From positions 1-23,242 of the IMG/VR virus record IMGVR_UViG_3300047552_000527: a stretch of DNA of 23,242 nucleotides. One strand, given 5' to 3'. The notes beneath the pieces are model-generated. The model saw only the letters and a program-made list of their open reading frames with translations. It ran no database searches and was not told the DNA's origin. Within the stretch, counting starts at the first letter, position 1; the number at the start of each line of letters is the position of its first letter. Made by a program: the position numbers and the translations under genes. The stretch is from a virus. Positions 5,690-18,892 of this stretch are shown here, one piece after another.

Positions 5690-5695
5690 TAGATA

Positions 5696-5725: not shown

Positions 5726-5739
5726 TCGCCGTGAGGCGA
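5726..5739 (+). other. Hairpin before the tail fibre ribosome-binding site
   Basis: TCGCC-GTGA-GGCGA forms a perfect five-pair stem with a GTGA (GNRA) tetraloop. It sits just upstream of the AGAAGGAAG ribosome-binding region of the tail fibre gene at 5757. No U-run follows, so it is not a terminator. It may stabilise the mRNA 5' end or be a processing site; this is inference. Confidence 0.4.
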
Positions 5740-5756
5740 CATAGAAGGAAGCGACG

Positions 5757-6659
5757 ATGGCCCGAAACGGTAGCGGTACATACTCATTGCCAGCAGGTCA
5801 ACCAGTAGTCACTGGCACGACCATATCCAGCACCACATTTAACACTCTAACCAGCGACCTTGCTACCGCTATTACGCAGTCTATCGCGTATGACGGTCAG
5901 ACTGTCCCCGTTGCTAACTTGCCTATGGGTGGCTATAAGCACACAGGGGTAGCTAACGGCTCTGCACTGACTGATTATGCTGCTTTGGGTCAAGTACAGG
6001 CTGGCGCATTCTCCTGGCTATCGTCCGTAACAGGTGCTGACACTATCACCGCAGGGGTTAGTCCTACGCCTTCAGCTTATGCTGCTGGTCAGACATTCCG
6101 CTTTGTGTCCGTTGGTGCTAATACGGGTGCGGTAACGCTGAATATATCATCACTCGGCGCTAAGTCGATTACCAAGAATGGTGCTACCGCATTGGTAGCG
6201 GGTGACATTCCTAGTGGCGCAGTAGTTACCGTAGTTTATGACGGCACACAGTTTCAACTGCAAAACGTAAGCGTTACAAACTCGCTCACTGGTTACGCCA
6301 AACTTGCCGTTGCACAGTCTTGGACAGCTACCCAAACTCCCTTCCGCGCAACAGCAACCGCTACCGCTGGCGCCGCATACACATGGACGCTAACCGCAGG
6401 TCAGGTACTAGAACTTACCTTCGGCGCAGGTAACATCACCACTCTGTCCGTATCTGGTGGCGTTGCAGGTACTTTCTACACGCTGAAGCTGACACAGGAC
6501 GGCACTGGTAGCAGACTTATTTCTGCTTATACAGGGTTCAAGTTTCCCTCTGGAACTACTCCTACGTTGTCCACTGGAGCGAGTGCTATAGACGTATTCA
6601 CCTTCTATTACGATGGCACCTCTATGTTGCTCATCGGTAGCGCGATAGGTCTTGCGTAA
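5757..6659 (+). CDS. Tail fibre / appendage protein
   Basis: A 300-residue protein whose N-terminus (MARNGSGTYSLPAGQPVVTG, then TTFNTLTSDLATAITQSI) matches the N-terminal region common to phage tail fibre or appendage proteins that attach to the tail. It contains the familiar LPMGGYKHTGVANG patch near residue 55. From about residue 85 onward it is rich in Thr, Ser, Gly and Ala with alternating beta-strand character (TFRFVSVGANTGAVTLNISS), as expected for a trimeric beta-rich fibre shaft and tip. It has a good ribosome site (GAAGGAAG) eight bases upstream. It is followed by a second adhesin-like gene overlapping by one base. Function in host recognition is inferred from family resemblance. Confidence 0.78.
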   Translation: MARNGSGTYSLPAGQPVVTGTTISSTTFNTLTSDLATAITQSIAYDGQTVPVANLPMGGYKHTGVANGSALTDYAALGQVQAGAFSWLSSVTGADTITAGVSPTPSAYAAGQTFRFVSVGANTGAVTLNISSLGAKSITKNGATALVAGDIPSGAVVTVVYDGTQFQLQNVSVTNSLTGYAKLAVAQSWTATQTPFRATATATAGAAYTWTLTAGQVLELTFGAGNITTLSVSGGVAGTFYTLKLTQDGTGSRLISAYTGFKFPSGTTPTLSTGASAIDVFTFYYDGTSMLLIGSAIGLA

Positions 6660-9001
6660 TGTTTACGTTTCCAGCAAGTAACTCTAGCAGCTACTCAATC
6701 CCCAACTCCATCCGCTTCAACGGTTCTAGTAGCTACATGAGCAGGACGGTAGGCACTAACGGAAATAGGAGAACCTGTACGTGGAGTGGGTGGGTAAAGC
6801 GTGGCAAGTTGACCTCCATCCAGATGTTGTTTGCCGCATCCATAGATGCTAATAACTACTTTTTATTTTACCTGTCTAGTGATGCGTTGGTTTTTGCATC
6901 GGCTGTTGCGGCGGCAGATGGGGGAAGTAGAACGTCTGTAAACTTGTTGCGCGACCCATCAGCGTGGTATCACATTATCCTACAGTTTGATGCGACAGCA
7001 ACAACAGCAAAAATATATGTTAATGGCGTTGAAATAACCTACACGGGTTCTACAGCCGTATCCAATCAGGATTACTGCATAAACTTAACGACAGCGGGCA
7101 ATTATTTAGGTCGTGATTCTAGGTCTGCGGCGAACTACCACGATGGCTACCTATCCGAAATCAACTTCATTGACGGTCAAGCCTTAACCCCATCCTCCTT
7201 CGGCGCAACCGACCCCACCACAGGACAATGGAAGCCAAAGAAGTACACAGGCACATACGGCACTAACGGGTTCTACCTACCGTTCAACGATGGCTCTAGC
7301 ACGACCACACTAGGCTATGACCGTCAGCTTGGATTAACCGACAGCAGTAAGAACAACTGGACGCTGACTAGCTTCACCCGTAGCGCAGGGGTATCTGATT
7401 GCTGGATGACGGACACGCCTACGAATAACTATGCCACAGGAAATCCTCTGTTACCTAGCGGGGCAACATGGTCTAACGGAGCACTTGGGTTTTCCATACC
7501 AAACGGCACAGGCAACTTCCAAACATCTGTAGCCGTAACATCTGGTAAATGGTATTGGGAAGCGCTATACACGGCGCAAGCAAATGATACTGGCATCCAA
7601 GAGGTTGGGTTGTTAGCTAGAAATACGTCAGCAATAACTTACGCATCAACTGGGGTTAAATTAGTAAACGGGGCGTCATCGGCGTATGGGGCATCGTACA
7701 CGACAGGGGATGTTATTGGCGTTGCGCTAGACATGACCGGCGGAACAGTAGAGTTCTACAAGAATAACGCATCGCAAGGTTCTATATCCATAAGTGGGTT
7801 GGTTGTTAATGCAGTAGCCACTGCGTCGGGTGGAGGTGGGGCGGCATCTACTGGAAATATCAACTTCGGACAACGCAGTTTCACCTACACACCGCCCACA
7901 GGCTACAAAGCACTCTGCACCGCAAACCTCCCCACGCCAGCCATCGCTAACCCGAAGCTGCATTTTGACATACCAACATGGACAGGGAACAACGCAAATA
8001 ATAGGTCTATAGCTACAAACTGTCAGGCTGACTTGGTGTGGATTAAAGACCGCTCTACCAGCATGAGCCACATTATTTGCGACTCGGTTCGCGGCTCAAA
8101 CAAGTACATATCGTCAAACACAACTGGCGCTGAAATAACGCCATCTGACTACGGTGCGGTAGGTAGCTTCTCATCCACTGGATTCACGCTGGTAGATGGC
8201 ACAGTGCCGTTTGAAACAACGTACCAGTTCGCGGTAAACATGAACACGGCAAGCTACCCAAATAGAAGCTATGTCGGTTTCGTATGGAAAGCAGGCGGCG
8301 CAGCAGTATCCAACACCGCAGGCTCTATCACCTCACAGGTATCCGCTAACACCACGGCTGGGTTTTCGATTGTTACTTATACGGGAACGGGTGCTAACGC
8401 TACGGTAGGACATGGGTTGGGTGTAGCGCCGAAGATGGTGATTTGTAAGGCGCGGGCAGGAACTGGATATTCTTGGAACGTATGGCACACAGGACTTGCG
8501 AACACTGAATTCCTATTGCTGGAATCAACTAACGCAAAGGCCACAGACGCTACCAAGTGGAACAGCACTTCGCCCACTTCAACCGTGTTCAGTCTTGGTT
8601 CTGCTGGTGGCGTAAATGAGAACACAAGGACATACGTTAGCTACGTTTTCGCCGAAGTAGCAGGGTTCAGCAAGGCGTTCAGCTTTACGGGCAATGCAAA
8701 CGCTGACGGCCCTATGGTCTGGCTAGGCTTCCGCCCCAAGTACGTCCTGCTGAAAAATGCCAGTGCCGCCGCTACCGATTGGGTTGTATTGGATACCCTG
8801 CGAAACCTTTACAACAAAGAGGAAAGCGCACTATTCCCGAATAGCAGTTCAGTCGAAACAACAAACGGTTTCTATGACAGCGACTTTGTAAGCAACGGAT
8901 TCAAGCTACGGTCTGCAAACTCAAACGTAAACGGTTCGGGCAATACGATTATTGGTATGGCTTTTGCCGAGTACCCATTCAACTACGCTAACGCGAGGTA
9001 A
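6659..9001 (+). CDS. Large receptor-binding fibre with LamG-like and SPRY-like domains
   Basis: A 780-residue modular protein that probably forms the distal tail fibre or tailspike. Residues about 18-180 look like a concanavalin A/LamG jelly roll (SIRFNGSSSYMSRT at the start; WYHIILQFDATATTAKIYVNG; FIDGQALTPSSFG at the end). Residues about 285-405 look like a SPRY domain (GKWYWEALY, then GDVIGVALDMTGGTVEFYKN and NINFGQRSF). The rest holds two related beta-rich blocks of the type found in phage fibres (VGHGLGVAPKMVICKAR near residue 580; GPMVWLGFRPKYVLLKN near 685), which recall DUF7483. All parts suggest carbohydrate or surface binding. The start overlaps the preceding stop (TAATG). No hydrolase motif is visible. 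Confidence 0.75.
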   Translation: MFTFPASNSSSYSIPNSIRFNGSSSYMSRTVGTNGNRRTCTWSGWVKRGKLTSIQMLFAASIDANNYFLFYLSSDALVFASAVAAADGGSRTSVNLLRDPSAWYHIILQFDATATTAKIYVNGVEITYTGSTAVSNQDYCINLTTAGNYLGRDSRSAANYHDGYLSEINFIDGQALTPSSFGATDPTTGQWKPKKYTGTYGTNGFYLPFNDGSSTTTLGYDRQLGLTDSSKNNWTLTSFTRSAGVSDCWMTDTPTNNYATGNPLLPSGATWSNGALGFSIPNGTGNFQTSVAVTSGKWYWEALYTAQANDTGIQEVGLLARNTSAITYASTGVKLVNGASSAYGASYTTGDVIGVALDMTGGTVEFYKNNASQGSISISGLVVNAVATASGGGGAASTGNINFGQRSFTYTPPTGYKALCTANLPTPAIANPKLHFDIPTWTGNNANNRSIATNCQADLVWIKDRSTSMSHIICDSVRGSNKYISSNTTGAEITPSDYGAVGSFSSTGFTLVDGTVPFETTYQFAVNMNTASYPNRSYVGFVWKAGGAAVSNTAGSITSQVSANTTAGFSIVTYTGTGANATVGHGLGVAPKMVICKARAGTGYSWNVWHTGLANTEFLLLESTNAKATDATKWNSTSPTSTVFSLGSAGGVNENTRTYVSYVFAEVAGFSKAFSFTGNANADGPMVWLGFRPKYVLLKNASAAATDWVVLDTLRNLYNKEESALFPNSSSVETTNGFYDSDFVSNGFKLRSANSNVNGSGNTIIGMAFAEYPFNYANAR

Positions 9002-9003
9002 TT

Positions 9004-9366
9004 ATGTTTCTACTTAACAACCGCAAAATTAACATAGACGCGCAACTGACCGTCAACGACACAACCTACCCCAACCTCCGCGACCCTGCGTTGCGTGAAG
9101 CCTTGGGCGTAACCGAAGTGCCTGACCCTGTTTACCCTGACCCTGAACTGTTCTACTGGACAGAAAACGAAGATGGCACTCTGACAGTTACCCCCAAGTC
9201 TGACGAGCAGATAGCACAGCAGAATCAATCCAAGCTGAACACCGCCTCGCTTGCCTACCTCGCAGATACAGATTGGTACGTGACCCGCTTTGCTGAAACT
9301 GGCGTTGCTATCCCTGACGATGTTAAGTTTGCACGTTCAGCGGCTAGGGCGGCGATAGTTAAATGA
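9004..9366 (+). CDS. Tail fibre assembly-like protein
   Basis: A 120-residue protein directly after the fibre genes. The N-terminal half is a small beta-rich region (FLLNNRKINIDAQLTVNDTTYPNL), the middle is acidic and Pro-rich (VPDPVYPDPELFYWTENEDG), and the C-terminal third is helical and ends with YLADTDWYVTRFAETGVAIP followed by an Ala-rich helix. That TDWYV...ETG...IP ending is typical of phage tail-fibre assembly chaperones and of small proteins encoded after fibre genes. It is expected to help fold or attach the fibres, acting in the cytoplasm. The next start overlaps this stop (ATGA). Confidence 0.6.
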   Translation: MFLLNNRKINIDAQLTVNDTTYPNLRDPALREALGVTEVPDPVYPDPELFYWTENEDGTLTVTPKSDEQIAQQNQSKLNTASLAYLADTDWYVTRFAETGVAIPDDVKFARSAARAAIVK

Positions 9367-9740
9367 AGTGGCTACACTTTATCGCGTCATTCCTGATATG
9401 GGTGACAGCGTACCTGCCTGTTGTCCTGTTGTCGTTTATCGCTGTGCCTTTCCTAATCCTCTGCACTAACTGGTCAGGCGCTACAACGATATTCGGCAAC
9501 ACAAAGTACCCAATGCCGATTAAGCATGGCTCTGTATCCGACCCTGAAGACTTCCTCCAGACGTTTACCTTTTACTGCTTGCGTAACCCTGTAAGCAACT
9601 GGGGAAGACTGTACCTATCGAACCATCAGACTTGGGCTTGGGAGTACCGTGGTGTCACTATTGGCCCCATAACGGTGGACTACGGATGGGCGTTAGGTGA
9701 TGAGCCGAAGTTCAAATTTAGACCAAGAATTAAACAATAA
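9363..9740 (+). CDS. Conserved phage membrane protein (DUF7338-like)
   Basis: A 125-residue protein with a strongly hydrophobic N-terminus (residues about 4-35, WLHFIASFLIWVTAYLPVVL then LLSFIAVPFLILC), enough for one long or two short membrane helices. A polar domain follows, containing CLRNPVSNWGRLYLS and an aromatic-rich C-terminal half (WAWEYRGVTIGPITVDYGWA). The membrane anchor followed by an RNPVSN motif is what I recall for the DUF7338 family of phage proteins of unknown function. It is coupled to the previous gene by an ATGA overlap. Its place just before the lysis-side genes suggests the inner membrane, but no role can be assigned. Confidence 0.6.
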   Translation: MKWLHFIASFLIWVTAYLPVVLLSFIAVPFLILCTNWSGATTIFGNTKYPMPIKHGSVSDPEDFLQTFTFYCLRNPVSNWGRLYLSNHQTWAWEYRGVTIGPITVDYGWALGDEPKFKFRPRIKQ

Positions 9741-9754
9741 AAATGGAAATGCTT

Positions 9755-10021
9755 ATGCCCCACCCCGACCCAGAAGTATGCGCCGAACTAACGGAGATGA
9801 AACACGCTATAGAAGCACTAGGCAGGAAGCTAGACGCACTCACTGGCGCTATGTCTAAGCACTTGGCAGAGGAAGAAAGAAACGGCCCATTGCTAGAGGA
9901 AATAATCCTTGCATGGCAACAAGGCGTAGGCGTTTTAAAGTTTGTAAAAGCACTGGCGGCTATTTCTGTATTCCTCGGCGGCTTTTTTGTATTTCTTCAC
10001 GATAAGGTAACTTGGAAATGA
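9755..10021 (+). CDS. Small coiled-coil protein with C-terminal membrane helix
   Basis: An 88-residue protein: a helical N-terminal region (AELTEMKHAIEALGRKLDAL) with heptad-like spacing, a polar middle and one C-terminal membrane helix (about residues 60-82, VGVLKFVKALAAISVFLGGF). The topology resembles XhlA-type haemolysin/holin accessory proteins and other tail-anchored phage lysis-region proteins, but there is no firm family match. Three in-frame ATGs occur (9743, 9749, 9755). I choose 9755 because GGAA lies six bases upstream, whereas nothing like a ribosome site precedes 9743. The next start overlaps the stop (ATGA). Confidence 0.55.
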   Translation: MPHPDPEVCAELTEMKHAIEALGRKLDALTGAMSKHLAEEERNGPLLEEIILAWQQGVGVLKFVKALAAISVFLGGFFVFLHDKVTWK

Positions 10022-10203
10022 CTCAATCCGATTCGATAGATGAAGTCATTGACGAATACCTTGGCGCTGAAATTGTGGGCATATCAATAGACCCTGAAGA
10101 AGAAGTCATCATCTTTGAGTTAGAGGATGGCAGGGGAATTCTGATTGGTGGCAAGGAAACTTACATTCAACTGCTAGACCGTGAACAGGTGCTACTTAAT
10201 TGA
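10018..10203 (+). CDS. Small acidic phage protein
   Basis: A 61-residue acidic protein (MTQSDSIDEVIDEYLGAEIV; later DPEEEVIIFELEDGRGILIG). The pattern suggests a short helix followed by a small beta sheet and no membrane segment. ATG at 10018 is preferred over the in-frame ATG at 10012 because it overlaps the preceding stop as ATGA, the rule in this operon. The stop overlaps the next gene's TTG start. Function is not recognised; small acidic proteins of this shape accompany phosphoesterase genes in some phages, but that is only context. Confidence 0.55.
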   Translation: MTQSDSIDEVIDEYLGAEIVGISIDPEEEVIIFELEDGRGILIGGKETYIQLLDREQVLLN

Positions 10204-10958
10204 AACGTCATTTAGTAATAACGGACGTACAGGCGAAGCCTGATAAAGACTTCTCATTCTTAACAGCAATTGGTAATTACATAGTTAAGCAGAAACCGGA
10301 CGTAATTATTTGTATTGGCGACTTTGCGGATATGCCTTCTCTATCGTCCTATGACGTAGGCAAAAAAGCGTTTGAAGGCAGACGGTACGTTAATGACATT
10401 AAAGCCGCTAAAGAGGCAATGGATGCCCTTCTTGACCCATTGCGTGAGTACAACATTAGGGCAAGACGCAACAAAGAGAAAACATACTCCCCAAGAATGG
10501 TGCTAACTCTTGGCAACCACGAACAACGAATATTACGCGCTATTAACGATGACCCAAAGTTAGACGGTTTAGTGTCTCTTAACGATTTACCTTACCAAGA
10601 GTGGGAAGTTATACCGTTTCTGGAAGTTATAGCAATTGACGGAATTTGTTACTCGCACTATTTCACCTCCGGTGTAATGGGCAAGCCAATAACGTCATCT
10701 GCTGCGCTACTTACTAAGAAGCACATGAGTTGCGTAGCTGGACACCAGCAAGGTCGGCAAATAAGTTACGGCAAACGTGCTGACGGTAAGGAAATGACCG
10801 CAATTATCGCGGGTTCGTGTTACCCGTGGGATGAGGACTACTTAGACCATCAATCGAACATTCACTGGCGTGGCATTTACGTCCTGCATGAAGTTGTTGA
10901 TGGCTCATTTGATGAAATGGCTGTTTCTACCCGCTACCTGTTGGAAAACCACCTATGA
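10200..10958 (+). CDS. Calcineurin-like metallophosphoesterase
   Basis: A 252-residue enzyme of the calcineurin-like phosphoesterase superfamily, which uses two metal ions to hydrolyse phosphomono- or diesters. Motifs appear in the right order: TDVQ at residues 8-11 (with Gln where His is usual), GDFAD at 40-44, GNHE at 105-108, SH at 152-153 and GHQ at 181-183. The first motif as D-x-Q and the last as GHQQ are variants also seen in phage members. The start is TTG at 10200, overlapping the upstream stop (TTGA). The end overlaps a tiny cysteine-rich gene by ATGA. Late-operon position suggests a role during DNA packaging, host takeover or nucleotide metabolism, but the substrate cannot be read from sequence. 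Confidence 0.82.
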   Translation: MKRHLVITDVQAKPDKDFSFLTAIGNYIVKQKPDVIICIGDFADMPSLSSYDVGKKAFEGRRYVNDIKAAKEAMDALLDPLREYNIRARRNKEKTYSPRMVLTLGNHEQRILRAINDDPKLDGLVSLNDLPYQEWEVIPFLEVIAIDGICYSHYFTSGVMGKPITSSAALLTKKHMSCVAGHQQGRQISYGKRADGKEMTAIIAGSCYPWDEDYLDHQSNIHWRGIYVLHEVVDGSFDEMAVSTRYLLENHL

Positions 10959-11119
10959 AAGTTTCAATTCTTAACTTATTGGAAACCTGCCCCGTGTGCA
11001 ATAAAACCTACTTACCCCAAAACGATGTTTGCGACTGCCCAGAAGAACCAGTGGTCAGTGATTGGGAGGATATACAGCAATTAAACGGCTTATGGGGTGA
11101 TGGGGAAGTTGCATTATGA
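10955..11119 (+). CDS. 54-residue zinc-ribbon-like microprotein
   Basis: A short gene that exactly fills the space between the phosphoesterase and DUF5675 genes, overlapping each by ATGA. The product has four cysteines in a plausible metal-binding arrangement, CPVC at residues 12-15 and CDC at 26-28, within MKVSILNLLETCPVCNKTYL and the following PQNDVCDC. An acidic, Trp-containing C-terminal half follows (VVSDWEDIQQLNGLWGDGEV). The double ATGA overlap and codon-like composition support a real gene despite its length. Function unknown; zinc-binding adaptor is an inference. Confidence 0.62.
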   Translation: MKVSILNLLETCPVCNKTYLPQNDVCDCPEEPVVSDWEDIQQLNGLWGDGEVAL

Positions 11120-11523
11120 AAATGAAGCTAATTAGAAACAGAGAATGCGGCGCGACCAAATGCACGTTTGGCACTCTCTACATTGATGACCTTCCAGCTT
11201 GCTACACACTAGAGGACATTGAACGTGAAATTAAGATACCCCACGAAACCGCCATTCCTACTGGTGTGTACAAAGTCACAGTTACTTACAGTCAGAGGTT
11301 TAAGCGAAATTTGCCTCTCTTGCTTGATGTTCCTAACTTTAGTGGTGTTCGTATTCACAGCGGTAATACCTCTGCTGATACTGAAGGATGTATTTTGTTG
11401 GGCGATGTCCCGCAATTTTCGGAAAACTTCCTCGGCAATTCCAGGCAAGCGTTCAACAGGGTATTTCAGAAAATAAACACCGCATATATCAACAAAGACG
11501 AAATTACATTGGAAATTGTATGA
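11116..11523 (+). CDS. DUF5675 family protein, candidate lysis enzyme
   Basis: A 135-residue protein of the DUF5675 type. The diagnostic segment is VRIHSGNTSADTEGCILLG (residues about 75-93), which places a His and a Cys 13 residues apart in a pattern like the SHG..GC active site of L,D-transpeptidases. The N-terminal half (CTFGTLYIDDLPACYTLED, then IPTGVYKV) also resembles this fold. Members are common in phage lysis regions. No conventional endolysin, lysozyme or amidase is visible in the window, and a holin follows directly, so this is the best candidate for a cell-wall-acting enzyme. Catalysis is unproved. Both ends overlap neighbours by ATGA. Confidence 0.72.
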   Translation: MKMKLIRNRECGATKCTFGTLYIDDLPACYTLEDIEREIKIPHETAIPTGVYKVTVTYSQRFKRNLPLLLDVPNFSGVRIHSGNTSADTEGCILLGDVPQFSENFLGNSRQAFNRVFQKINTAYINKDEITLEIV

Positions 11524-11615
11524 GTGATGAACAATTTGACCCGCCCCTATGGGCATGGATTATCTCTGCCATGCTTATATTCGTATCTCTTTTTGCTTTG
11601 ATAGCGATTGCTTAG
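11520..11615 (+). CDS. 31-residue single-helix membrane peptide
   Basis: A very short gene, ATG at 11520 overlapping the DUF5675 stop (ATGA). The product has an acidic N-terminus (MSDEQFDPP) and then one uninterrupted hydrophobic helix to the end (LWAWIISAMLIFVSLFALIA). The acidic-out, single-helix layout suits a small lysis accessory such as a holin-like or antiholin-like peptide. Its position between the DUF5675 gene and the three-helix holin supports a lysis role, which remains inference. It lies 9 bp before the holin start. Confidence 0.6.
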   Translation: MSDEQFDPPLWAWIISAMLIFVSLFALIAIA

Positions 11616-11624
11616 GGGATAATT

Positions 11625-12140
11625 ATGGACTTTCTTAAAACTGTACTTCCTTGGGTTGGCGCTGCGGCTACTGGTGGGGTTCCAGCGTTAATTGGAATGG
11701 CGGCTAAAAAAGTAGGTGAAGTAATTGGCTCTACTGTAGGCGAAACTTCAGAAGAAATAGCCGCTGCTGTAGCTGGCGCAACTCCTGAACAAATGCTTGC
11801 TCTGAAGAAAGCAGACCAAGACTTTCAGGTACAAATGCAATCTATGGGCTTTAAGCAAATTACAGACTTAGAGAAGATAGCCGCCGATGACAGGGCTAAC
11901 GCTAGAAGCCGCGAAATGGCTTTGCGTGACGCTACCCCTTCAATACTTGCATTCGGCGTTTCTGTTGGCTTCTTTGGCGTTTTAGGATGGATGCTTGCTT
12001 ATGGCGCTCCTGAACGTGGCGGGGATGCTCTGCTGGTAATGCTTGGCTCATTGGGTACGGCTTGGGCAAGTATATGTGCTTATTACTTCGGAAGTTCTGC
12101 TGGTAGCGCCAGAAAGACCGAGATAATGGGGGGCAAGTAA
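11625..12140 (+). CDS. Three-helix phage holin (GTA_holin_3TM-like)
   Basis: A 171-residue holin-like protein expected to permeabilise the inner membrane at the end of infection. It has an N-terminal hydrophobic segment (about residues 8-27), a helical Ala/Gln-rich cytoplasmic middle containing DDRANARSREMALRD (residues 88-102), and two C-terminal membrane helices (about 107-128 and 134-155). It ends in YYFGSSAGSARKTEIM. The ANARSREMA block and YYFGSS.GS..KT ending are characteristic of the GTA_holin_3TM/3TM-type holin family. AGGGGATAATT before the ATG is a good ribosome site. The stop overlaps the next start by one base (TAATG). Confidence 0.82.
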   Translation: MDFLKTVLPWVGAAATGGVPALIGMAAKKVGEVIGSTVGETSEEIAAAVAGATPEQMLALKKADQDFQVQMQSMGFKQITDLEKIAADDRANARSREMALRDATPSILAFGVSVGFFGVLGWMLAYGAPERGGDALLVMLGSLGTAWASICAYYFGSSAGSARKTEIMGGK

Positions 12141-12808
12141 TGGCTGATTACATTGACGGCCTGTTAAGTACGGCTAAGAGAAAGCTAGGTAAGTCTCAGA
12201 TACTTGGATTGCTTGCTGACGCATTTAACGCTCCTGCTGATTCTTACACAGGCAAAAACATGGGTGGCGTGCTGGTTGATGATTCTATGCGGTATGTTGA
12301 AAGCAACAAGCCACTAGAACGTGCGCTTAATCTTGCCGGCAATGTTACTTCTGGGGGCATAATTGCTTCACCAGAAACAGCGCATGGTCTTCTTGGAATG
12401 AGCGTTAATGATGTCCAATTTAATAAGTTTAAAAATGGCCTTGTCTCATTAAGAAAAGGGGAAAAGTTAGAGCCAATAGATAGCGTTGCATCATTGTCAA
12501 ATCAACAAATGAAGGACACAAGGGCGGCTGGTGGAGTTATTTCAGACAACAATGTTATGCTAAAGCCTCACGATGGTGGACACGTTTTAGATGAAAGAAC
12601 TATTGATGGCACGCCTATAAAGCAAGTTGCAAATACATTTAGACGGGCGTTTGGTGACACAGCAGTTGTTGACATGAGCCTGTCTAACGGCGTTCCAAAT
12701 AGATATGTATTGAGAAGCCCAAACGGAGACTTGGGAATTTACAAAATAGAAAATGGACGTCCAGTTTTTGTTACAACATACGAAAAAGATTCACTAAAGA
12801 AAAAATAA
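12140..12808 (+). CDS. Terminal late-operon protein, possible BECR-type nuclease cargo
   Basis: A 222-residue protein of unrecognised family, the last gene of the late operon. The N-terminal third is helical (GLLSTAKRKLGKSQILGLLA); the middle contains NLAGNVTSGGIIASPETAHG, a segment resembling those in large phage virion proteins. The C-terminal 85 residues form a separate region: MLKPHDGGHVLDERTIDG, a helix, then beta strands GIYKIENGRPVFVTTYEKD. A Lys/His pair followed much later by V-T-T-Y is reminiscent of phage barnase/EndoU/colicin/RelE-like (PBECR) nucleases. I offer that as a hypothesis only. It is coupled to the holin by TAATG and ends 17 bp before a structured RNA candidate. Confidence 0.5.
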   Translation: MADYIDGLLSTAKRKLGKSQILGLLADAFNAPADSYTGKNMGGVLVDDSMRYVESNKPLERALNLAGNVTSGGIIASPETAHGLLGMSVNDVQFNKFKNGLVSLRKGEKLEPIDSVASLSNQQMKDTRAAGGVISDNNVMLKPHDGGHVLDERTIDGTPIKQVANTFRRAFGDTAVVDMSLSNGVPNRYVLRSPNGDLGIYKIENGRPVFVTTYEKDSLKKK

Positions 12809-12818
12809 GTGGTATATT
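12790..12818 (+). promoter_or_regulatory. Putative sigma-70 promoter of small RNA
   Basis: TTCACT at 12790-12795 (four of six matches to the -35 consensus) and TATATT at 12813-12818 (five of six to the -10) are separated by exactly 17 bases. The predicted start is A12825 or G12826, the very first base of the closing helix of the RNA that follows. It lies across the end of the preceding coding gene. Confidence 0.5.
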
Positions 12819-12825
12819 GTTTTTA

Positions 12826-13004
12826 GGTGTTATCAATGCCTGTTGTCATCACATTAGTACCCTTCCGCGTTGGGCCAGCGGATTGAAAGTAAATGGCGGT
12901 CAGATAAAAATGACTTGGTGGTGATGAAGGCAGGGGCGCAAGCAGAGGCCGTGCGGAGATAACGCCTAAACCTAACCCGTCCTAGTGGCGGGTTTTGTTT
13001 TTTT
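12826..13004 (+). ncRNA. Candidate structured small RNA, about 170-180 nt
   Basis: No protein gene fits here, but the sequence folds into nested helices. P1: GGTGTTATC (12826-12834) with GATAACGCC (12958-12966), nine pairs with one G-U. P2: TGCCT (12837-12841) and TCATCAC (12846-12852) with AGGCA (12928-12932) and GTGATGA (12921-12927), twelve pairs with a four-base bulge. P3: TCCGC (12864-12868) with GCGGA (12878-12882). P4: GTCA (12899-12902) with TGAC (12911-12914). A weaker P5 pairs GCGC (12936-12939) with GTGC (12951-12954). GGCC in the P3 loop (12873-12876) could kiss GGCC at 12947-12950. A promoter precedes and a terminator follows. I recognise no Rfam family; function unknown. Confidence 0.55.
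12974..13004 (+). terminator. Intrinsic terminator after late operon and small RNA
   Basis: AACCCG (12974-12979) pairs with CGGGTT (12989-12994). Two more C-G pairs follow inside after a bulged T, with a TAGT loop, and the T-rich tail TTTTGTTTTTTT runs through 13004. This is a classical rho-independent terminator for rightward transcription and would define the small RNA 3' end as well as stop the late mRNA. Confidence 0.8.
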
Positions 13005-13015
13005 ACTGTTCACGT

Positions 13016-13248
13016 TCTGTGCAAATCTGTTCTCATATTAATTTTTACCATCACGCAGTTATGCAGTTTATAGACCGTTAAATCTGCCCAATATGAGAAA
13101 TGCTATACTCACCAAACGCTATATGTAGTATAGCTTTTCAGCCATTTTCACTACCTTACTGGTGATAAGCACTGCATTGTCCTAACGTATTGTTTTAGTT
13201 GTTTAAAATATGATGTGTTCTCATATTATTCTCTTTGTATTCTCATAT
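13016..13248. other. Likely attP region with integrase arm-type repeats
   Basis: This AT-rich stretch directly 3' of the integrase gene has no protein gene. It holds the 13-mer TGTTCTCATATTA twice (13028-13040 and 13216-13228), a third partial copy ATTCTCATAT (13239-13248, entering the integrase stop region), and an inverted copy AATATGAGAA (13090-13099). Near the middle lies an inverted repeat GCTATACT (13102-13109) / AGTATAGC (13127-13134), with another GCTATA at 13118. A near-tandem GCAGTTAT/GCAGTTTAT lies at 13055-13071. Outer repeats around a central palindrome is the layout of a tyrosine-recombinase attP: arm sites around core sites. No tRNA 3' end is recognisable, so the host attB target cannot be named. 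Confidence 0.6.
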
Positions 13249-14217
13249 CTTCCTCTGTAGCGGCTGCACCTTCTGCGTCTTAAACCGCTTAACGTACTTG
13301 TCAGACATGGCCTTCGATGTGTGTCCAAGGATGGCCTGATAGTCCTGTCCTTCATTCTCTGCATCCGTAGCAGACTTGGCCCGAATGTCTCTAAACTGTG
13401 CCTCTTTTATCCCTGCTTTGGCGCAAGCCTCTTTCCACCACTTCCATAAAGTAGTTTCGCTGACCGCTACACCTCTAACGGTCACAAACAGCATCTTGCT
13501 TAACCGTATACCTTTAACCTCTTTCGCCTTCCTGATTGCTTCTCTCAAGTCATCCGTCCACATGAACAACTGCTTTGCACCTGTTTTCTGCTGATGTATA
13601 TACAGTCCGTCATCACGGATATCTGACATTTCTATCTTGCGTATGTCTATCGGTCTTTGGCCTGATAAATAAGCCAGCGTCATGATGCTTTTAAGCGTGT
13701 CAGAGGCGTTTTTATAGATGGCTTGATACTCTGTATCCTCTAGGTATCGTTTACGGCCTTGTAGCGTGTGTTTTTCTATATCGTTAGCAGGGTTTACCTG
13801 TATCCATCCGTAGCGTCTAGCCTTCTCCAGTGATTGCTTGATAACGACCAGACCGATATTGGCAACTGCTTTTGATGGGTGCTGGTCTAAATACTGGTAG
13901 ATATGTGCTGACGTTATGTTCTTGCAGGATACTCTGCCGAACACATCCCGCAGTTTCTTTGCCGCGCCTTGGTATGAGCGTTGAGTATTAGGTGCTAGTT
14001 TTGTAAAGTCTGTGCTGATTAAGTATTTGTCTAGAGCAGAGTTGAACGTCTGGTTATTTGCTACGCCTTCCAATTCTGCCCACTTCATTTTAGCTATGGA
14101 CAGGTCTTTGCCTAACGGAATCCACTTACCATGCGCCACATAATAATAGCAATCTCGCTTCATCCGTAGATGCTGCGGTAGGTTTCTATTGTGGATTTTA
14201 GGACGGCCCATTGCCAT
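13243..14217 (-). CDS. int: Tyrosine site-specific recombinase (phage integrase)
   Basis: A 324-residue integrase that would catalyse recombination between attP and the host attB. The N-terminal region (about 1-50) is an arm-binding-type domain, residues about 55-145 the SAM-like core-binding domain, and 155-324 the catalytic domain. Catalytic residues: Arg188 (SGQRPIDIR), Lys211 (QQKTGAKQ), Arg279 in FRDIRAKSATD (where the usual His of HxxR is Arg276), His299 (LGHTS) and nucleophile Tyr308 (SDKYVKRF). The RDIRAK variant is known in lambdoid-type integrases. It is the last gene of the leftward operon, nine bases after the TGT-like gene, and borders the repeats proposed as attP. Confidence 0.93.
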   Translation of the reverse strand: MAMGRPKIHNRNLPQHLRMKRDCYYYVAHGKWIPLGKDLSIAKMKWAELEGVANNQTFNSALDKYLISTDFTKLAPNTQRSYQGAAKKLRDVFGRVSCKNITSAHIYQYLDQHPSKAVANIGLVVIKQSLEKARRYGWIQVNPANDIEKHTLQGRKRYLEDTEYQAIYKNASDTLKSIMTLAYLSGQRPIDIRKIEMSDIRDDGLYIHQQKTGAKQLFMWTDDLREAIRKAKEVKGIRLSKMLFVTVRGVAVSETTLWKWWKEACAKAGIKEAQFRDIRAKSATDAENEGQDYQAILGHTSKAMSDKYVKRFKTQKVQPLQRKI

Positions 14218-14226
14218 ATTATGCCC

Positions 14227-14982
14227 CTACGCTGCCATCCCAAACAAATCAATTTCCACTTGTACCATTGTGTTTGCCCTATCGAAAAACATAGGAGACT
14301 GATACTGCTCAATGCGCTCTCTTAATACCGTTGCGCGAACTTCCTTGCTTGCTGGCGCATATCCACCTGTCCATGCCTTGTCTATCCCTACATTTCTGGC
14401 AAGGTTTGTACTGTCGCAAGATGAAAAGCAGTATTGCGTGTATATCTTTGGGTCAAGCATACGCAGACCGTGGACTTTGCATATCGGACGGCCTTGCTTG
14501 TCAGTAATGGCAGAAAATATTTCCCGCATCCTGGAGTGCCATTTAACCGTTCCAATCTTGGAGTATTCAGCTGAACTTCCAAGGGCGATTCTTGGGTACT
14601 CATGCGCCAACCTAACTACACGGTCTATCGGCTCATGCAGGTGAAAAACTGGAACTGAGTAATGTTTTGGATATGGGTTATCCAGAAGCAGGGCATCGTT
14701 ATCCTCTGCTGTGCCGTCAATAACATCAGGGCATAGAAACCAGTCAAAGTGCGGAACCCTTATCAAGTCACCAACAATGCTATAAAACTCGTTCCAATTT
14801 GTCGGTGTTCCAGACTTCCAGAAAGAAAATGCGCCGTTATCGAACATGAAAGACGAGCAATGTTCCATCACCGTAGGGAATGCGTCCATGCAAGCATAAC
14901 TAACGCAAGCGTGTGCATTCTTCAGTGCGGCATAGCCAACTGTTGATGCGCCACTGATAGGAGTGCCGTGGTAGTGAATCAT
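14227..14982 (-). CDS. TGT/DpdA-like phage protein (7-deazaguanine transferase superfamily)
   Basis: A 251-residue protein of a family common in proteobacterial prophages and usually left unnamed. Its motif order resembles the TIM barrel of tRNA-guanine transglycosylases and the phage DNA enzyme DpdA: FMFDNGAFSFW with Asp48, then WFLCPDVIDG with Asp86/Asp89, a PVFHLHEP strand with His116, RIALGSS, KVHGLRMLD with His171 and a final SSCDSTNLARN with Asp190. DpdA exchanges guanine in DNA for 7-deazaguanine precursors, protecting phage DNA from restriction. No preQ0 synthesis genes are in the window, so a base supply would have to come from the host. The overlap with the preceding gene is ATGA. 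The superfamily call is fairly secure; the DNA-modification role is inference. Confidence 0.6.
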   Translation of the reverse strand: MIHYHGTPISGASTVGYAALKNAHACVSYACMDAFPTVMEHCSSFMFDNGAFSFWKSGTPTNWNEFYSIVGDLIRVPHFDWFLCPDVIDGTAEDNDALLLDNPYPKHYSVPVFHLHEPIDRVVRLAHEYPRIALGSSAEYSKIGTVKWHSRMREIFSAITDKQGRPICKVHGLRMLDPKIYTQYCFSSCDSTNLARNVGIDKAWTGGYAPASKEVRATVLRERIEQYQSPMFFDRANTMVQVEIDLFGMAA

Positions 14983-15314
14983 GGAACTAGGTTTCCTAAT
15001 GCTTGCTTGGTCTTATCCTTAAGCGGTGTAGTCATTCCAGTGCCATCTCCGTACCACCACCATCCACGCAATAACTCTTTCAGGTCGGCTATTTCCTGAT
15101 TAGCCCCTGCCATTTGTTGCCACACGTTTTTTACATTCTGGTTAAGGCAATGCATCTCTCTATGTGCATCAGTCAACTTTTTGATTAAGTCATCTCGTCT
15201 CAAGTTGTCGTAAATGCCAAGACGCTTGATGTTGCAACGTGTGCAAATCATCTTGTGTTCAGCGTTGTAGTTGCTTAACGAGGTGCATTCAGAGTTGCAT
15301 TCTTGGCAAATCAT
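14979..15314 (-). CDS. Zinc-finger plus coiled-coil small protein
   Basis: A 111-residue protein beginning MICQECNSECTSLSNYN. Two CxxC pairs (Cys3/Cys6 and Cys24/Cys27) form an apparent zinc finger. Residues about 38-85 are helical with heptad character (RRDDLIKKLTDAHREMHCLN) and a Trp-rich patch follows (RGWWWYGDG). It looks like a DNA- or protein-binding adaptor, but no family is recognised. Its stop overlaps the TGT-like gene start by ATGA, so the two are translated together, nine bases downstream of the DUF4224 gene. Confidence 0.62.
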   Translation of the reverse strand: MICQECNSECTSLSNYNAEHKMICTRCNIKRLGIYDNLRRDDLIKKLTDAHREMHCLNQNVKNVWQQMAGANQEIADLKELLRGWWWYGDGTGMTTPLKDKTKQALGNLVP

Positions 15315-15323
15315 TTTTTATCC

Positions 15324-15509
15324 TTATGCCGCCAGTGATGAAAAGTCTGGTAATACTTCCTGCCTTGCCTCAAGCTGATGACTATAAACAACCAGCGTAC
15401 CGTTCAGCCGCCGACTAAACTTAATGCCAAGGTTGTCCAGTTCCTTCATCTGTGCGGAAGGTCTGTGCTTGCCAGTAAGAGTTCTTATTTCATCTTCTGT
15501 AAGTATCAT
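15324..15509 (-). CDS. DUF4224 family protein
   Basis: A 61-residue protein matching the DUF4224 pattern: ILTEDEIRTLTGKHRPSAQM (acidic E-[ILV]-xx-LTGK-x-R-x-SAQ), then LDNLGIKFSRRLNGTLVVY. These short proteins are found near integrases and excision functions in many proteobacterial prophages; a DNA-binding role in excision or integration control is suspected but not established. GGGAG eight bases before the ATG is the ribosome site. It is a few genes upstream of the integrase in the same leftward operon and may start a sub-operon, since a possible promoter lies just upstream. Confidence 0.8.
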   Translation of the reverse strand: MILTEDEIRTLTGKHRPSAQMKELDNLGIKFSRRLNGTLVVYSHQLEARQEVLPDFSSLAA

Positions 15510-15553
15510 TTAATAACTCCCTACCTTATTTAACCTTAATGGGTGGGGCGCAC

Positions 15554-15584
15554 AATCTATTTCGGCATCGGCTCACTGCGTCAA
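15554..15584 (-). promoter_or_regulatory. Weak candidate promoter for DUF4224-to-int segment
   Basis: Read leftwards, TTGACG at 15584-15579 matches five of six -35 positions, and TAGATT at 15559-15554 lies 19 bases on. The spacing is long and the -10 imperfect. It falls in the only sizeable intergenic space (15510-15635) of the lower operon, which otherwise shows no gene. Confidence 0.25.
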
Positions 15585-15635
15585 AGCCTTCGCAAACAGC
15601 ATTAGCTGATATGCCTTATTCTCTGCCCCGTAAAC

Positions 15636-15881
15636 TTATTGCAACATCCCCCGCGCTTTATCCATCATCTTCTCTGCTTCCGGTGCATCGAAGTCAGAGC
15701 AGAAGTCATACGCCTCCACAATCTCGCGGAGCATGGCGCGGCAGGTTTTTGCATCTCTTACTATTGCTCTCGCCCCTTTAAAATCAGCAAGTGTTAGTCC
15801 GTGGTCTTTCCAATCGTCGTTAGATAAGTCTGCAAAGTTATCAAGGCAGAACTGCAACGCTTCCATGTGGCTCTGTTTCAT
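15636..15881 (-). CDS. Small helical early protein
   Basis: An 81-residue predicted helical protein (MKQSHMEALQFCLDNFADLS; then GARAIVRDAKTCRAMLREIV). A perfect AGGAGG lies ten bases or fewer before the ATG at 15881, so I choose that start over the in-frame one 15 codons upstream. There is no motif of known function and no membrane segment. The gene lies 34 bp after the HNH gene and before the 126-bp gap preceding DUF4224. Function unknown. Confidence 0.65.
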   Translation of the reverse strand: MKQSHMEALQFCLDNFADLSNDDWKDHGLTLADFKGARAIVRDAKTCRAMLREIVEAYDFCSDFDAPEAEKMMDKARGMLQ

Positions 15882-15915
15882 TTTTGATTCCTCCTGACTG
15901 ATATACGTTTGATAG

Positions 15916-16404
15916 TTACTTTTCACAACCTATTCCAGTAACCTTGCTCCATGTTTTGCCTAGATAAATGTCACCTATTGAAACGATGGTCACGCCGTAT
16001 TTTTCTGCCAGTTCCTTTATAGTGAATTTGTCTTTTAGAGCAACTATGTCTAAAACGTCTGACGGAGAAAGTTTTGCTGTATGAGTTAGATGCGGATTCT
16101 CTTGAATAAAGTACCTTCCTTTATCAGCGCAGTCCTTCATGTTTTCACTTCTTGTTCCTATGAACAAATGATTAGGATTTACACATAAAGGGTTGTCACA
16201 GGTATGGCACACGTCCATGCCATCTGGAACTTCACCAACAAACAGAAGATGCGATGCCCTACTGGCAACTATTGTTTTACCGTTATAGTAAAACTGACCG
16301 TATGCCCTTGGGTGTTCTCGCGGTCGAGTTGTAGCTCCTTTCCAAATCCAGCACGATTCAGTCTTTTCAACTTTCTTCATAAACCGTTCTAGTTCATTAG
16401 CCAT
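15916..16404 (-). CDS. HNH endonuclease with C-terminal helix-turn-helix (homing type)
   Basis: A 162-residue free-standing HNH endonuclease. The nuclease core is CHTCDNPLCVNPNHLFIGT (residues 66-84), with His67 and His79 catalytic and Cys66/69/74 likely structural. It is preceded by the CWIWKG and YGQF strands typical of this class. A C-terminal helix-turn-helix (ELAEKYGVTIVSIGDIYLGK, about 131-150) would give DNA specificity, like the repeats in I-HmuI/IENR1-type homing enzymes. It overlaps the end of the preceding gene by eight bases. Such enzymes nick DNA and spread their own gene into related phages. It has probably been inserted into this operon of small genes. Confidence 0.88.
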   Translation of the reverse strand: MANELERFMKKVEKTESCWIWKGATTRPREHPRAYGQFYYNGKTIVASRASHLLFVGEVPDGMDVCHTCDNPLCVNPNHLFIGTRSENMKDCADKGRYFIQENPHLTHTAKLSPSDVLDIVALKDKFTIKELAEKYGVTIVSIGDIYLGKTWSKVTGIGCEK

Positions 16405-16591
16405 TTTTGCTTTCCTTCAAAACTTTTATTTCTTCCTCAAGAGCCGACACCTTGGCTTGTAGTGCTTCGACTGTTGCTTGGTCGTATAGTCCAACCTTGC
16501 ACCCCCATTCTTCAGCGTCTTCTATTGTTCTAGCAAACTGCATATATGGAAATCCTTTGCTCCATGCAACTGGCTTTATATCGTCACTCAT
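16397..16591 (-). CDS. Small early phage protein with C-terminal coiled coil
   Basis: A 64-residue protein starting MSDDIKPVAWSKGFPYMQFA and containing VGLYDQATVEALQAKVSAL followed by a short Glu/Lys coiled coil. The PVAW...LYDQATVEAL pattern is common in small early-region proteins of proteobacterial prophages; function is unknown. Both ends overlap neighbours: its ATG shares ATGA with the preceding gene and its stop lies eight bases inside the HNH gene start. Confidence 0.65.
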   Translation of the reverse strand: MSDDIKPVAWSKGFPYMQFARTIEDAEEWGCKVGLYDQATVEALQAKVSALEEEIKVLKESKNG

Positions 16592-16758
16592 TTCTTATCT
16601 CCCTTGCAAGCTATACGCAAAGCCTCTGTCCACGTACACCGAAGCTGATGTTGAATACGTTTTGCTTCAACTATCTCGCTCTGCGCTTTTGCAGACATAG
16701 ACTTTTTCTCAATCGTAAAGTCAGTTGACCCATACGTTGCGTGTGCTAATAGACTCAT
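16588..16758 (-). CDS. 56-residue basic early protein
   Basis: A gene too short to stand out by length, but fixed by ATGA overlaps at both ends and a good ribosome site (AAGGGAGATGAG). The product starts MSLLAHATYGSTDFTIEKKS and ends with QLRCTWTEALRIACKGDKK, a helical, basic tail like that of several unnamed prophage early proteins. No enzymatic motif or membrane segment is seen. It is presumably co-expressed with its neighbours; function unknown. Confidence 0.65.
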   Translation of the reverse strand: MSLLAHATYGSTDFTIEKKSMSAKAQSEIVEAKRIQHQLRCTWTEALRIACKGDKK

Positions 16759-16985
16759 TTCTCATCTCCCTTTAGTGCGCGGATGTTGTGGGCATACCCA
16801 GCGTCATTGCTTTCCATGTAGTCCGCAGCCTCATCCAACGTCCTGTTCCGTATCTCGGTGGCGAAGGCGATGAGTTCTTGGTGGAGAAATCTAAACTGAA
16901 ATACATTGTCGTCAGGATGCCCCGTATAAAACTCGTACATGAAGCCGTGCTTGCGGGCTAGTTCTATGATTTCTTCCGGTTTCAT
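16755..16985 (-). CDS. Small early phage protein
   Basis: A 76-residue, mostly helical protein (MKPEEIIELARKHGFMYEFY; LIAFATEIRNRTLDEAADYM; ending IRALKGDEK). The ELARKHG and FA..IRNRTLDEAA segments recur in small, unnamed prophage proteins. There is no catalytic motif. It is linked by ATGA overlaps to the methyltransferase C-terminal piece before it and to the 56-residue gene after it. Function unknown. Confidence 0.65.
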   Translation of the reverse strand: MKPEEIIELARKHGFMYEFYTGHPDDNVFQFRFLHQELIAFATEIRNRTLDEAADYMESNDAGYAHNIRALKGDEK

Positions 16986-17284
16986 TTAATCTCACTCACT
17001 TGTTGTATCCGTATCCCTATCCACTCCATGACGTTTGTCGCCATCGAATTCCCAAGCGCCTTGTATCGTGGGCCGTCTGGTGTAGGTTTGCCGTTTGGCA
17101 TAATGTCGGTGTATCCGTCAGGGAAGCCCTGTAGTCTTTCGCACTCTGTTGGCGTTAATCGACGAACGGACATTCCCGTCTTAACTGCTGGCGTTTTACT
17201 TTTATCAAGCGTAGGAGTTACATCCTCACTAACGCTTGCTCCTTGCTGGCTACTGTTCTGCCATCCAAAAGCTATATCGTTCAT
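16982..17284 (-). CDS. Cytosine-C5 DNA methyltransferase, C-terminal part (motifs IX-X)
   Basis: A 100-residue reading frame carrying the end of a C5-cytosine methyltransferase: motif IX RRLTPTECERLQGFPDGYT (residues about 41-59) and motif X LGNSMATNVMEWIG (about 77-90). The first 35 residues, with NSSQQGASVSEDVTPTLDKS, look like the end of the target-recognition region. It cannot act alone because the SAM pocket and catalytic Cys are in the upstream frame. Its ATG shares ATGA with the end of the bridging frame, so it could be made as a separate subunit by coupled translation, as in the naturally split M.AquI. Alternatively it is the relic of a frameshift. Confidence 0.78.
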   Translation of the reverse strand: MNDIAFGWQNSSQQGASVSEDVTPTLDKSKTPAVKTGMSVRRLTPTECERLQGFPDGYTDIMPNGKPTPDGPRYKALGNSMATNVMEWIGIRIQQVSEIK

Positions 17285-17360
17285 TTGCTCACCACAAAGT
17301 TTTCAGTTTCAAAGTCCATGCGATTCTTGGTTATCAGGCATCTTGCAACTGACAAACAAT
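17281..17360 (-). pseudogene. Out-of-frame bridging segment of the methyltransferase
   Basis: In the third leftward frame the segment immediately after the G tract reads DCLSVARCLITKNRM then DFETENFVVSK before a stop. That is the usual recognition-domain sequence of phage cytosine methyltransferases (V-A-R-x-L-T-x-K...D-E-T-E-x-F-V). It is therefore the true continuation of the N-terminal part, displaced by one base. A tract of 10 or 13 G, instead of 12, would join them. Its stop overlaps the next ATG. Confidence 0.6.
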
Positions 17361-18158
17361 CCCCCCCCCCCCGTTGATATGCTGGTTATCCTGACCAAGT
17401 TTTGTTGCGTAGCTTGTGTCTAGGGTAGGGGCAACGTCAGCACAAACAACTGGCGTTTCAACATCTAAATCAAATCCACCATCTCTTGCCAACAATGTTT
17501 GCGCTACGCATTCTTCATGGTTGTTGCGACTGATTTCAAAGCGTGCTGCAATTGTTGCGGAAGGTTCTTCCCCCTTTTTTCTGCTCGGCGCAGGATGCCC
17601 CGACAAGCTGTGGCGCTCAAAAAGAACCGCTGCGGCACGTTGCCAACTTCCAAGATGTCCGACAACGAACACACGCCTTCTTCGTTGTGGAACGGCGCGA
17701 GGGAAAGTGGGTGTTCTGGTAAATTGAGCGTCAAGGACTCGGTAAGAGTACCCATACCCGCACTCTGCCAACCCGCGAAGGAAGGTGGCAAAATCTCTTC
17801 CTCCGTTGGATGACAGCACTCCAGGAACGTTCTCCCAAAGAACCCAAGTGGGGCGATACTTTGCAGCAATGGCAAGATAGGTAAGCATGAGGTTGCCACG
17901 CGGGTCATCCAGTCCTTTTCTAAGTCCAGCAACACTGAATGATTGGCAGGGGGTTCCTCCAACGAGAACATCGATAGTTGCATCAGGCCACTCCTTAAAT
18001 TTAGTCATATCGCCCCAATTTGGAACGTCTGGGTAATGGTGCGCTAACACCTTGCAAGGGAACGGCTCAACCTCGCTAAAAGCAACTGGCTCCCAACCTA
18101 GCTTGTGCCACGCTACGGATGCCGCTTCAATGCCAGAGCAAACTGACAGGTATTTCAC
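17334..18158 (-). CDS. Cytosine-C5 DNA methyltransferase, N-terminal catalytic part
   Basis: A 274-residue frame with the catalytic half of a C5-cytosine methyltransferase: motif I (SVCSGIEAASVAWHKLG, SAM binding, residues 5-21), motif IV with catalytic Cys71 (GGTPCQSFS), motif VI Glu-Asn-Val at 109-111 (WENVPGV) and motif VIII QRRRR (158-162). The recognition region then runs to HINGGGG and, with 12 G bases, leaves the proper frame and stops after ten residues. As written it lacks motifs IX and X and should be inactive alone. Intact, it would methylate cytosine in phage DNA, probably as anti-restriction protection. Its start overlaps the preceding gene by ATGA. Confidence 0.85.
   Translation of the reverse strand: MKYLSVCSGIEAASVAWHKLGWEPVAFSEVEPFPCKVLAHHYPDVPNWGDMTKFKEWPDATIDVLVGGTPCQSFSVAGLRKGLDDPRGNLMLTYLAIAAKYRPTWVLWENVPGVLSSNGGRDFATFLRGLAECGYGYSYRVLDAQFTRTPTFPRAVPQRRRRVFVVGHLGSWQRAAAVLFERHSLSGHPAPSRKKGEEPSATIAARFEISRNNHEECVAQTLLARDGGFDLDVETPVVCADVAPTLDTSYATKLGQDNQHINGGGGIVCQLQDA
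17361..17372 (-). repeat. 12-base homopolymer (G12 on coding strand), possible phase-variation tract
   Basis: Twelve consecutive C on the + strand, read as G12 in the methyltransferase gene. It follows the codons for HIN and precedes the point where coding sense moves to another frame. Tracts of this length slip during replication, so the gene would be on at 10 or 13 G and off at 12. A homopolymer length error in sequencing or assembly is an equally simple explanation. Confidence 0.9.
17504..17983 (-). CDS. Overlapping alternative-frame gene within the methyltransferase
   Basis: A 159-residue open frame entirely inside the methyltransferase gene on the same strand in a different frame. Its C-terminal half reads VCSLSDILEVGNVPQRFFLS then ATACRGILRRAEKRGKNLP, which I recognise from stand-alone phage proteins of unknown function (C-S-L-S-D-I-L...FLS..AC.GILRRAEKRGK.LP). 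Its first part (MQLSMFSLEEPPANHSV) also resembles database proteins derived from this same frame. The two frames share DNA over methyltransferase motifs IV to VIII and the start of the recognition region. It is either an overprinted gene or an annotation ghost carried by methyltransferase conservation; no clear ribosome site decides. Confidence 0.4.
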   Translation of the reverse strand: MQLSMFSLEEPPANHSVLLDLEKDWMTRVATSCLPILPLLQSIAPLGFFGRTFLECCHPTEEEILPPSFAGWQSAGMGTLTESLTLNLPEHPLSLAPFHNEEGVCSLSDILEVGNVPQRFFLSATACRGILRRAEKRGKNLPQQLQHALKSVATTMKNA

Positions 18159-18418
18159 TCACGCTCTCCTGTAAACACTTCAAAATCTGCAACTGGCTTC
18201 AGGCTATCAACGTACTCATCGTCGTATGGCTTATTGCATCCAGCGCACCGCTTATCGCTTGCCTTCGCGTCATACCTGCACTTTGTACTCATTGCCATAG
18301 GCCAGTTCACCGTGTAGGTCTGCGAATGACTAACCACTGTAGGCATCTGTTTAGGCTTTGTCTGATGGCAACCGTATGGATGCATTGGCATCAAGACGTT
18401 GTTTACTTTTATGGTCAT
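18155..18418 (-). CDS. Cys-rich small early protein
   Basis: An 87-residue protein starting MTIKVNNVLMPMHPYGCHQT. It contains PYGCHQTKPK and, later, KCRYDAKASDKRCAGCNKPY, so Cys and His residues could form a zinc-binding knuckle. The start at 18418 is chosen for its AAGGA seven bases upstream; the frame extends further without a ribosome site. The stop overlaps the methyltransferase start by ATGA, so the two are coupled. It lies 72 bp after the SSB gene. Function unknown. Confidence 0.6.
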   Translation of the reverse strand: MTIKVNNVLMPMHPYGCHQTKPKQMPTVVSHSQTYTVNWPMAMSTKCRYDAKASDKRCAGCNKPYDDEYVDSLKPVADFEVFTGERE

Positions 18419-18490
18419 AAATATGTCCTTAAACGGATTTATGCGGGGACACAGGACATAACCGTTATTTAGCAAAGGAGCCAAATGTCT

Positions 18491-18892
18491 TTAAAAAGGT
18501 AAATCATTGTCCAATTCAGCTATGCCGCCAGTTTCATCCGGTATAACGTCCTGCGTCATACCCTTACCGCCAAGCATTACCATTTTTTCCGCGACTACTT
18601 CTGTGGTGTACTGGTCAACGCCTTCTTTGTTTTTCCACTTCCGAGTTTGCAAGCGGCCTTCTAGGTAAACGCTTGAGCCTTTCTTCAAATACTCACCAGC
18701 AATTTCAGCTTGCCGACCAAACATCACAATGCGTACCCACTCGGTATGCTCTACCTTGTTACCGTCTTTACCTTTGCGGGATTCAGTGACGGCAATTGAA
18801 AAGTTGCACATTCCATCCCCGCTAGGCAGGAAACGCACTTCTGGAGACTTCCCTAGATTGCCAATAAAAATGCATTTATTAACTGCGGCCAT
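18491..18892 (-). CDS. ssb: Single-stranded DNA-binding protein
   Basis: A 133-residue SSB of the bacterial/phage OB-fold type. It opens with [20 protein letters not shown], continues with FSIAVTE and [20 protein letters not shown], then [16 protein letters not shown] and ends in the acidic tip DNDLPF, which recruits partner proteins. It should coat ssDNA during recombination and replication, acting with the exonuclease and annealase encoded just upstream. At 133 residues it is shorter than host SSB (about 170-180), with a short linker. Its first 14 bases overlap the end of the HNH gene, an unusual arrangement that suggests the HNH gene was inserted directly before it. Confidence 0.95.

Follow-up and report, generated by a model that had tools for sequence, protein, structure and literature searches.

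The locus raises the question of whether the short segment between the late operon of this virus and its likely attP carries an RNA gene of its own, as had been suggested from the DNA letters. The window, that is, the whole stretch of DNA analyzed here, is a linear virus record of 23,242 bases (IMGVR_UViG_3300047552_000527, positions 1 to 23,242) and covers part of the genome of a temperate P22-like podovirus. Its rightward genes, which run up to position 12808, include genes of amidase, DNA-transfer and tail type as well as one for a small membrane protein, while the leftward genes encode a tyrosine integrase (13243-14217) and queuine tRNA-ribosyltransferase-like, ERF, YqaJ and SSB-like proteins. 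The top relatives of the DNA-transfer protein are from Rhodoferax phage P26218 and freshwater podoviruses, at 27-30% identity. The last late-operon gene (12140..12808, + strand), located directly upstream of the candidate RNA, encodes a 222-aa orphan protein with zero matches in Pfam, PHROGs, viral contigs, phages, plasmids and 369 genomes; as it has no relative in any collection searched, the phage lineage is an isolated one.

The segment begins with a sigma-70-type promoter, recognized by its consensus elements, TTCACT-17-TATATT with a TG extended -10 (12790..12818, +), which lies partly within the end of the last late gene (stop codon 12806-12808). Both hexamers and the 17-nt spacer agree with the original prediction, and the site proved stronger than had been evident there. 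When scored with a weight matrix for sigma-70 that used approximate textbook frequencies, a spacing term and a bonus for an extended -10, the promoter (site 12813) ranks second of the 1,362 scored sites in the 23-kb window, and shuffled sequences give an expectation of 1.15 sites per 23 kb with at least its score. The sole higher-scoring site, at 21833 (+), points out of the repressor region, about where an immunity promoter belongs. In addition, promoter-like sites are rarer in this phage than expected by chance (16 found vs. 27 expected), which makes one kept at the end of an operon more telling. Transcription is predicted to start at A12825 or G12826 (12825..12826, +), 7-8 nt past the -10 element, and the start purine is near-ideal for the predicted transcript.

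An intrinsic terminator, composed of AACCCGTCCTAGTGGCGGGTT followed by TTGTTTTTTT (12974..13004, +; hairpin 12974-12994 plus T tail), begins ~165 nt past the late stop codon at 12808. It was expected to be strong, and among 25 candidates in positions 3500-23242 (19.7 kb scanned) it has the most G+C-rich stem and the longest T tail. The segment thus ends in a terminator with a U-rich tail, like a phage or prophage sRNA gene; because the late operon requires a terminator anyway, this element is not independent evidence for such a gene, and it could also serve the late operon. The segment itself is G+C-rich, at 51%, compared with 40% upstream and 34% downstream.

This arrangement could also be that of a structured 3′ UTR, in which case the late mRNA would continue through the segment to the terminator, the promoter-like site would be accidental or secondary, and the helices P1 and P2 (see below) would protect the 3′ end or be processed into a 3′-UTR-derived sRNA. 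The segment does directly follow the last late gene and precede the only strong terminator. P22-like late operons are normally transcribed from one promoter, and sRNAs derived from 3′ UTRs are common. However, a promoter score that is second in the window argues against an accidental site, and so does the organization of two related late operons, which end 20-30 nt before their terminators and have no such segment. In the lytic phages L108 (Rhodoferax phage P26218) and L109, both distant relatives at 29-50% protein identity, the terminator lies ~22 and ~30 nt, respectively, past the last late gene, as read by hand from the sequences. Here, 165 nt separate the last late stop codon from the terminator, and the extra segment is absent from both relatives. 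We regard a 3′ UTR as unlikely, albeit with an appreciable chance of being correct. At the level of sequence, the segment has a promoter of its own, as would a phage or prophage sRNA gene, and it is an extra unit with its own promoter and terminator that is missing in these two relatives, as would be a moron or accessory gene.

The likely attP region (13025..13250) follows the terminator and contains arm-type repeats and an inverted core (13097-13139). Four copies of the repeat TTCTCATAT, at 13030, 13090 (inverted), 13218 and 13240, flank the inverted pair GAAATGCTATACT / AGTATAGCTTTTC, and no tRNA was detected in this attP-like array. Because these arms and core lie downstream of the terminator, outside the RNA, attachment-site function does not explain the candidate RNA and was rejected as its role.

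RNAfold returns a multihelix structure for the segment. The closing helix, P1, pairs GGUGUUAUC (12826..12834, +) with GAUAACGCC (12958..12966, +) in exactly the 9 bp that had been claimed. The inner helix P2 was also recovered, with 13 pairs rather than the 12 originally counted: its strands (12839..12852 and 12921..12934, +), also listed as inverted repeat I2, form 6+7 pairs (12839-12844/12929-12934 and 12846-12852/12921-12927) around a single 1x1 mismatch. P1 and P2 are present in both the MFE and centroid structures. The two further inner hairpins that had been proposed correspond to P3 (12864..12882, +; stem 12864-12868/12878-12882, loop GUUGGGCCA) and P3b (12898..12915, +; stem 12898-12902/12911-12915), the latter with the A-rich loop AGAUAAAA. 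A side hairpin, P4 (12936..12954, +), with 4+2 pairs, is weakly defined in the ensemble. The structure is unchanged whether the terminator is included or left out, and the terminator folds as a separate hairpin. This detailed shape is only a prediction of the folding model. The RNA could conceivably belong to a new class of compact, end-closed, multihelix molecules, with a three-way junction and a 9-bp helix closing at the first transcribed base, that act by shape, for example by binding a host or phage protein, and not by base pairing; we consider this very improbable.

Statistical comparison shows why the fold should not carry the argument. It had been held that long nested helices and G-U pairing would be unlikely by chance, and neither contention withstood comparison with shuffled sequences. 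The MFE z-score is -1.88 without the terminator and -2.19 with it (7 of 200 shuffles in each case), 8% of 3000 shuffles fold as stably as the candidate RNA, and among 478 stretches of 145 nt sampled from this phage its z-score ranks at the 7.5th percentile. The energy gap between the + and - strands is average (-9.8 vs. -10.2 +/- 3.6 in shuffles), so the G-U content is explained by composition. A suggested GGCC/GGCC kissing contact is likewise unsupported, as the pairing amounts to 4 bp between copies of a word that is its own complement, and the inner stem of P4 overlaps the second copy. What is rare is a helix that closes the ends: one of at least 9 bp occurs in 0.4% of the 3000 shuffles and one of at least 8 bp in 0.9%, a statistic chosen post hoc. 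With the parts tested separately, the promoter thus provides the strongest evidence, followed by the end-closing helix, and the stability of the fold as a whole contributes little. The strongest outliers in fold stability within the phage are found elsewhere, at 19692-19933 (-; z -5.1) and 13775-13919 (+; z -4.5), and sit within or antisense to protein genes.

Our homology searches returned no relative of the candidate RNA. No Rfam 15 family reached the gathering threshold; the best subthreshold match, Pseudomonas P9 (19.3 bits, threshold 43), covers the terminator part only. ARAGORN detected neither a tRNA nor a tmRNA. Blastn against the phage collection found no homologue, and neither did searches of plasmids (which gave only 27- to 35-nt chance matches), targeted pattern scans of viral contigs, a covariance model built from the one sequence and run on ~130 loci (related or pattern-matched), or searches of ~1,160 genomes from one class and two orders, where a single match was judged to be chance. 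The covariance model, R1, recovers its own sequence. The reach of these searches extends to close relatives of the RNA; a diverged homologue could be missed, given the limited power of a model built from a single sequence.

Several apparent matches were examined and rejected. A gapped pattern requiring exact P1 gave 14 matches in viral contigs, a count within chance, and their flanks and inner folds are unlike those of the RNA. A 17-mer scan returned four chance-level contigs, none matching the model, and a 20-mer scan returned none. The top R1 matches among the loci read as parts of protein genes, one repeat-rich (L004), one helicase-like (L118) and one aminotransferase-like (L111). The one genome match, L134 (E 3.6e-5, 1 of 391 genomes), was called chance because it lacks most of P2 and lies antisense within a metallo-beta-lactamase-fold-like gene. 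Neighboring genes also did not lead to the RNA: the 222-aa gene gave no relatives, the integrase gave relatives at 37% in viral contigs and ~33% in phages and none in genome contigs, and the gene preceding the last late gene gave relatives at 31-57%, none of these relatives being accompanied by the RNA.

These results bear on a further explanation, that the segment is a nonfunctional spacer, either a decayed accessory gene or filler DNA, with a fold ordinary for its composition. The absence of conservation in any collection searched, the 7.5th-percentile fold and the compositional origin of the G-U pairs are all as such a spacer would have them. However, it would leave unaccounted for the strong promoter, the G+C island and the helix that closes at the start site, and we judge it improbable, though by no means negligible.

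The segment was also considered as a tiny protein gene. A ribosome-site-like AGGTG (12825-12829) lies 6 nt ahead of an ATG at 12836 that opens a 16-aa frame (MPVVITLVPFRVGPAD). Moreover, an overlapping, +1-shifted frame (YPSALGQRIESKWRSDKNDLVVMKAGAQAEAVRR) is open for 34 codons (12858-12962), which makes a short frameshifted or decayed gene conceivable, and two of the best chance DNA matches elsewhere, L004 and L111, lie in protein genes, where the frame of the matching portion corresponds. The codon usage, however, falls between that of real genes and that of wrong frames (scores as low are seen in 7% of segments from real genes, and scores as high in 11% of open segments in wrong frames), and PHROG and tblastn searches of the frames of the segment gave no family and no meaningful match. 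The segment between promoter and terminator holds no convincing ORF, and a protein gene here seems decidedly improbable.

Collectively, the data favor a separately transcribed, short and apparently noncoding unit as the best reading of the segment. The part of the original prediction that posited a separate unit rests on the promoter, the near-ideal start purine, the lack of a convincing ORF, the terminator and the 165 nt that the two lytic relatives lack. A structure maintained by selection is not demonstrated, as the stability of the fold is ordinary for this phage and the searches returned no homologue. Our leading, still tentative interpretation, to which we assign a little less than even confidence, is a moron-like or accessory prophage sRNA gene, probably of the Hfq-dependent, base-pairing type. 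From the 3′ edge of the late operon, its own sigma-70 promoter would produce a transcript of ~170-180 nt, extending from A12825/G12826 to the terminator at 12974-13004. Because no obvious phage repressor site is seen at the promoter (judged by eye), it should be active in the lysogen, when the late operon is off, as accessory prophage loci are. The RNA would then work in trans; its most likely role is that of a base-pairing regulator of the Hfq or ProQ type that targets messages of the host or the phage. By pairing probability, its most accessible segments are those around ACCCUUCCGC (12859-12868), the P3 loop and the A-rich stretch 12883-12911, and these unpaired segments could mediate pairing. 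The candidate RNA has a long U tail, which would suit Hfq. The terminator would, in addition, shield attP and the convergent integrase gene from transcription of the RNA and from late-operon readthrough. The sequence shows the anatomy of the unit, the rank of its promoter, a predicted fold and the lack of a convincing ORF; we infer transcription, lysogen expression, the chaperone, base pairing and targets alike.

A scan for interactions with 40 phage gene starts gave seven at or below -7.6 kcal/mol, compared with 0-6 in 12 shuffled sets, the best being with gene 955 (-11.0). This enrichment is only marginal and so supports no target. Pairing with the translation start of the neighboring gene, which had been put forward as one possible function, is not among the best predicted interactions. 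Another proposed function, in packaging, finds no support, and no terminase or head genes were seen in the fragment.

ncRNA genes are common in prophages and well documented, including those of BTP1/Gifsy (PMC7067206), VpdS, PreS, sar and others (PMC12197685) and svsR (PMC12803456), and the candidate would be another, sited at the late-operon/attP junction and without a sequence relative. Nine candidate ncRNAs were mapped in BTP1, also a P22-like podovirus; the BTP1/Gifsy ncRNAs, such as STnc6030, IsrJ and IsrK, are, as the candidate would be, independently transcribed noncoding units of temperate phages, several are expressed in the lysogen, and most are of unknown function (PMC7067206). The candidate showed no sequence similarity in the phage collection, and while STnc6030, of 786 nt, is antisense to the tailspike gene (PMC7067206), the candidate is a unit at the end of the late operon. 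VpdS of phage VP882 and lambda PreS are phage-encoded, trans-acting Hfq sRNAs, the mode proposed here, for which Hfq binding and effects on host messages have been shown (PMC12197685); for the candidate, the Hfq mode is our proposal from sequence. The svsR sRNA of prophage NC-SV changes receptor expression in the host and restricts other phages, which is the kind of function the candidate could plausibly have, although svsR sits in the 3′ end of cI (PMC12803456) and the candidate, for which the searches returned no homologue, lies between the late operon and attP. The morons of P22-like phages, such as the ant moron with its sar antisense RNA and the gtrABC conversion operon, are, as proposed for the candidate, independently expressed cargo that can include RNA (PMC2629481). 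They are mainly protein cargo, with the ant moron located before the tailspike gene (PMC2629481), whereas the candidate has no convincing protein and follows the last late gene.

If transcribed, the candidate would be an unmatched RNA cargo gene at the late-operon/attP junction of temperate podoviruses, a position that is usually examined for proteins and not RNAs and that can readily be inspected in other prophages. The locus also cautions against relying on an attractive fold of a single sequence, which is weak evidence; here the case rests on the promoter and not on the fold.

Other genes in the window also merit comment. The gene adjoining the integrase (14227-14982, -) has no Pfam match and shows 43-49% identity to phage genes annotated as queuine tRNA-ribosyltransferase, including those of P22-like Salmonella phages such as BTP1; its product is a possible DNA or tRNA base-modification enzyme. 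A C-5 cytosine DNA methyltransferase (16982-18158, -) is present in two pieces, N-terminal (17334-18158) and C-terminal (16982-17284), each with a Pfam DNA_methylase match; their frames differ, with stop codons between them, and the gene appears split or broken. An overlapping open frame of 159 codons (17504-17983) lies in the same region. Finally, the calcineurin-like phosphoesterase at 10200-10958 (+) has 56-68% identity to genes of many metagenomic viral contigs, which have almost none of the other tested genes, and it looks like a mobile single gene.
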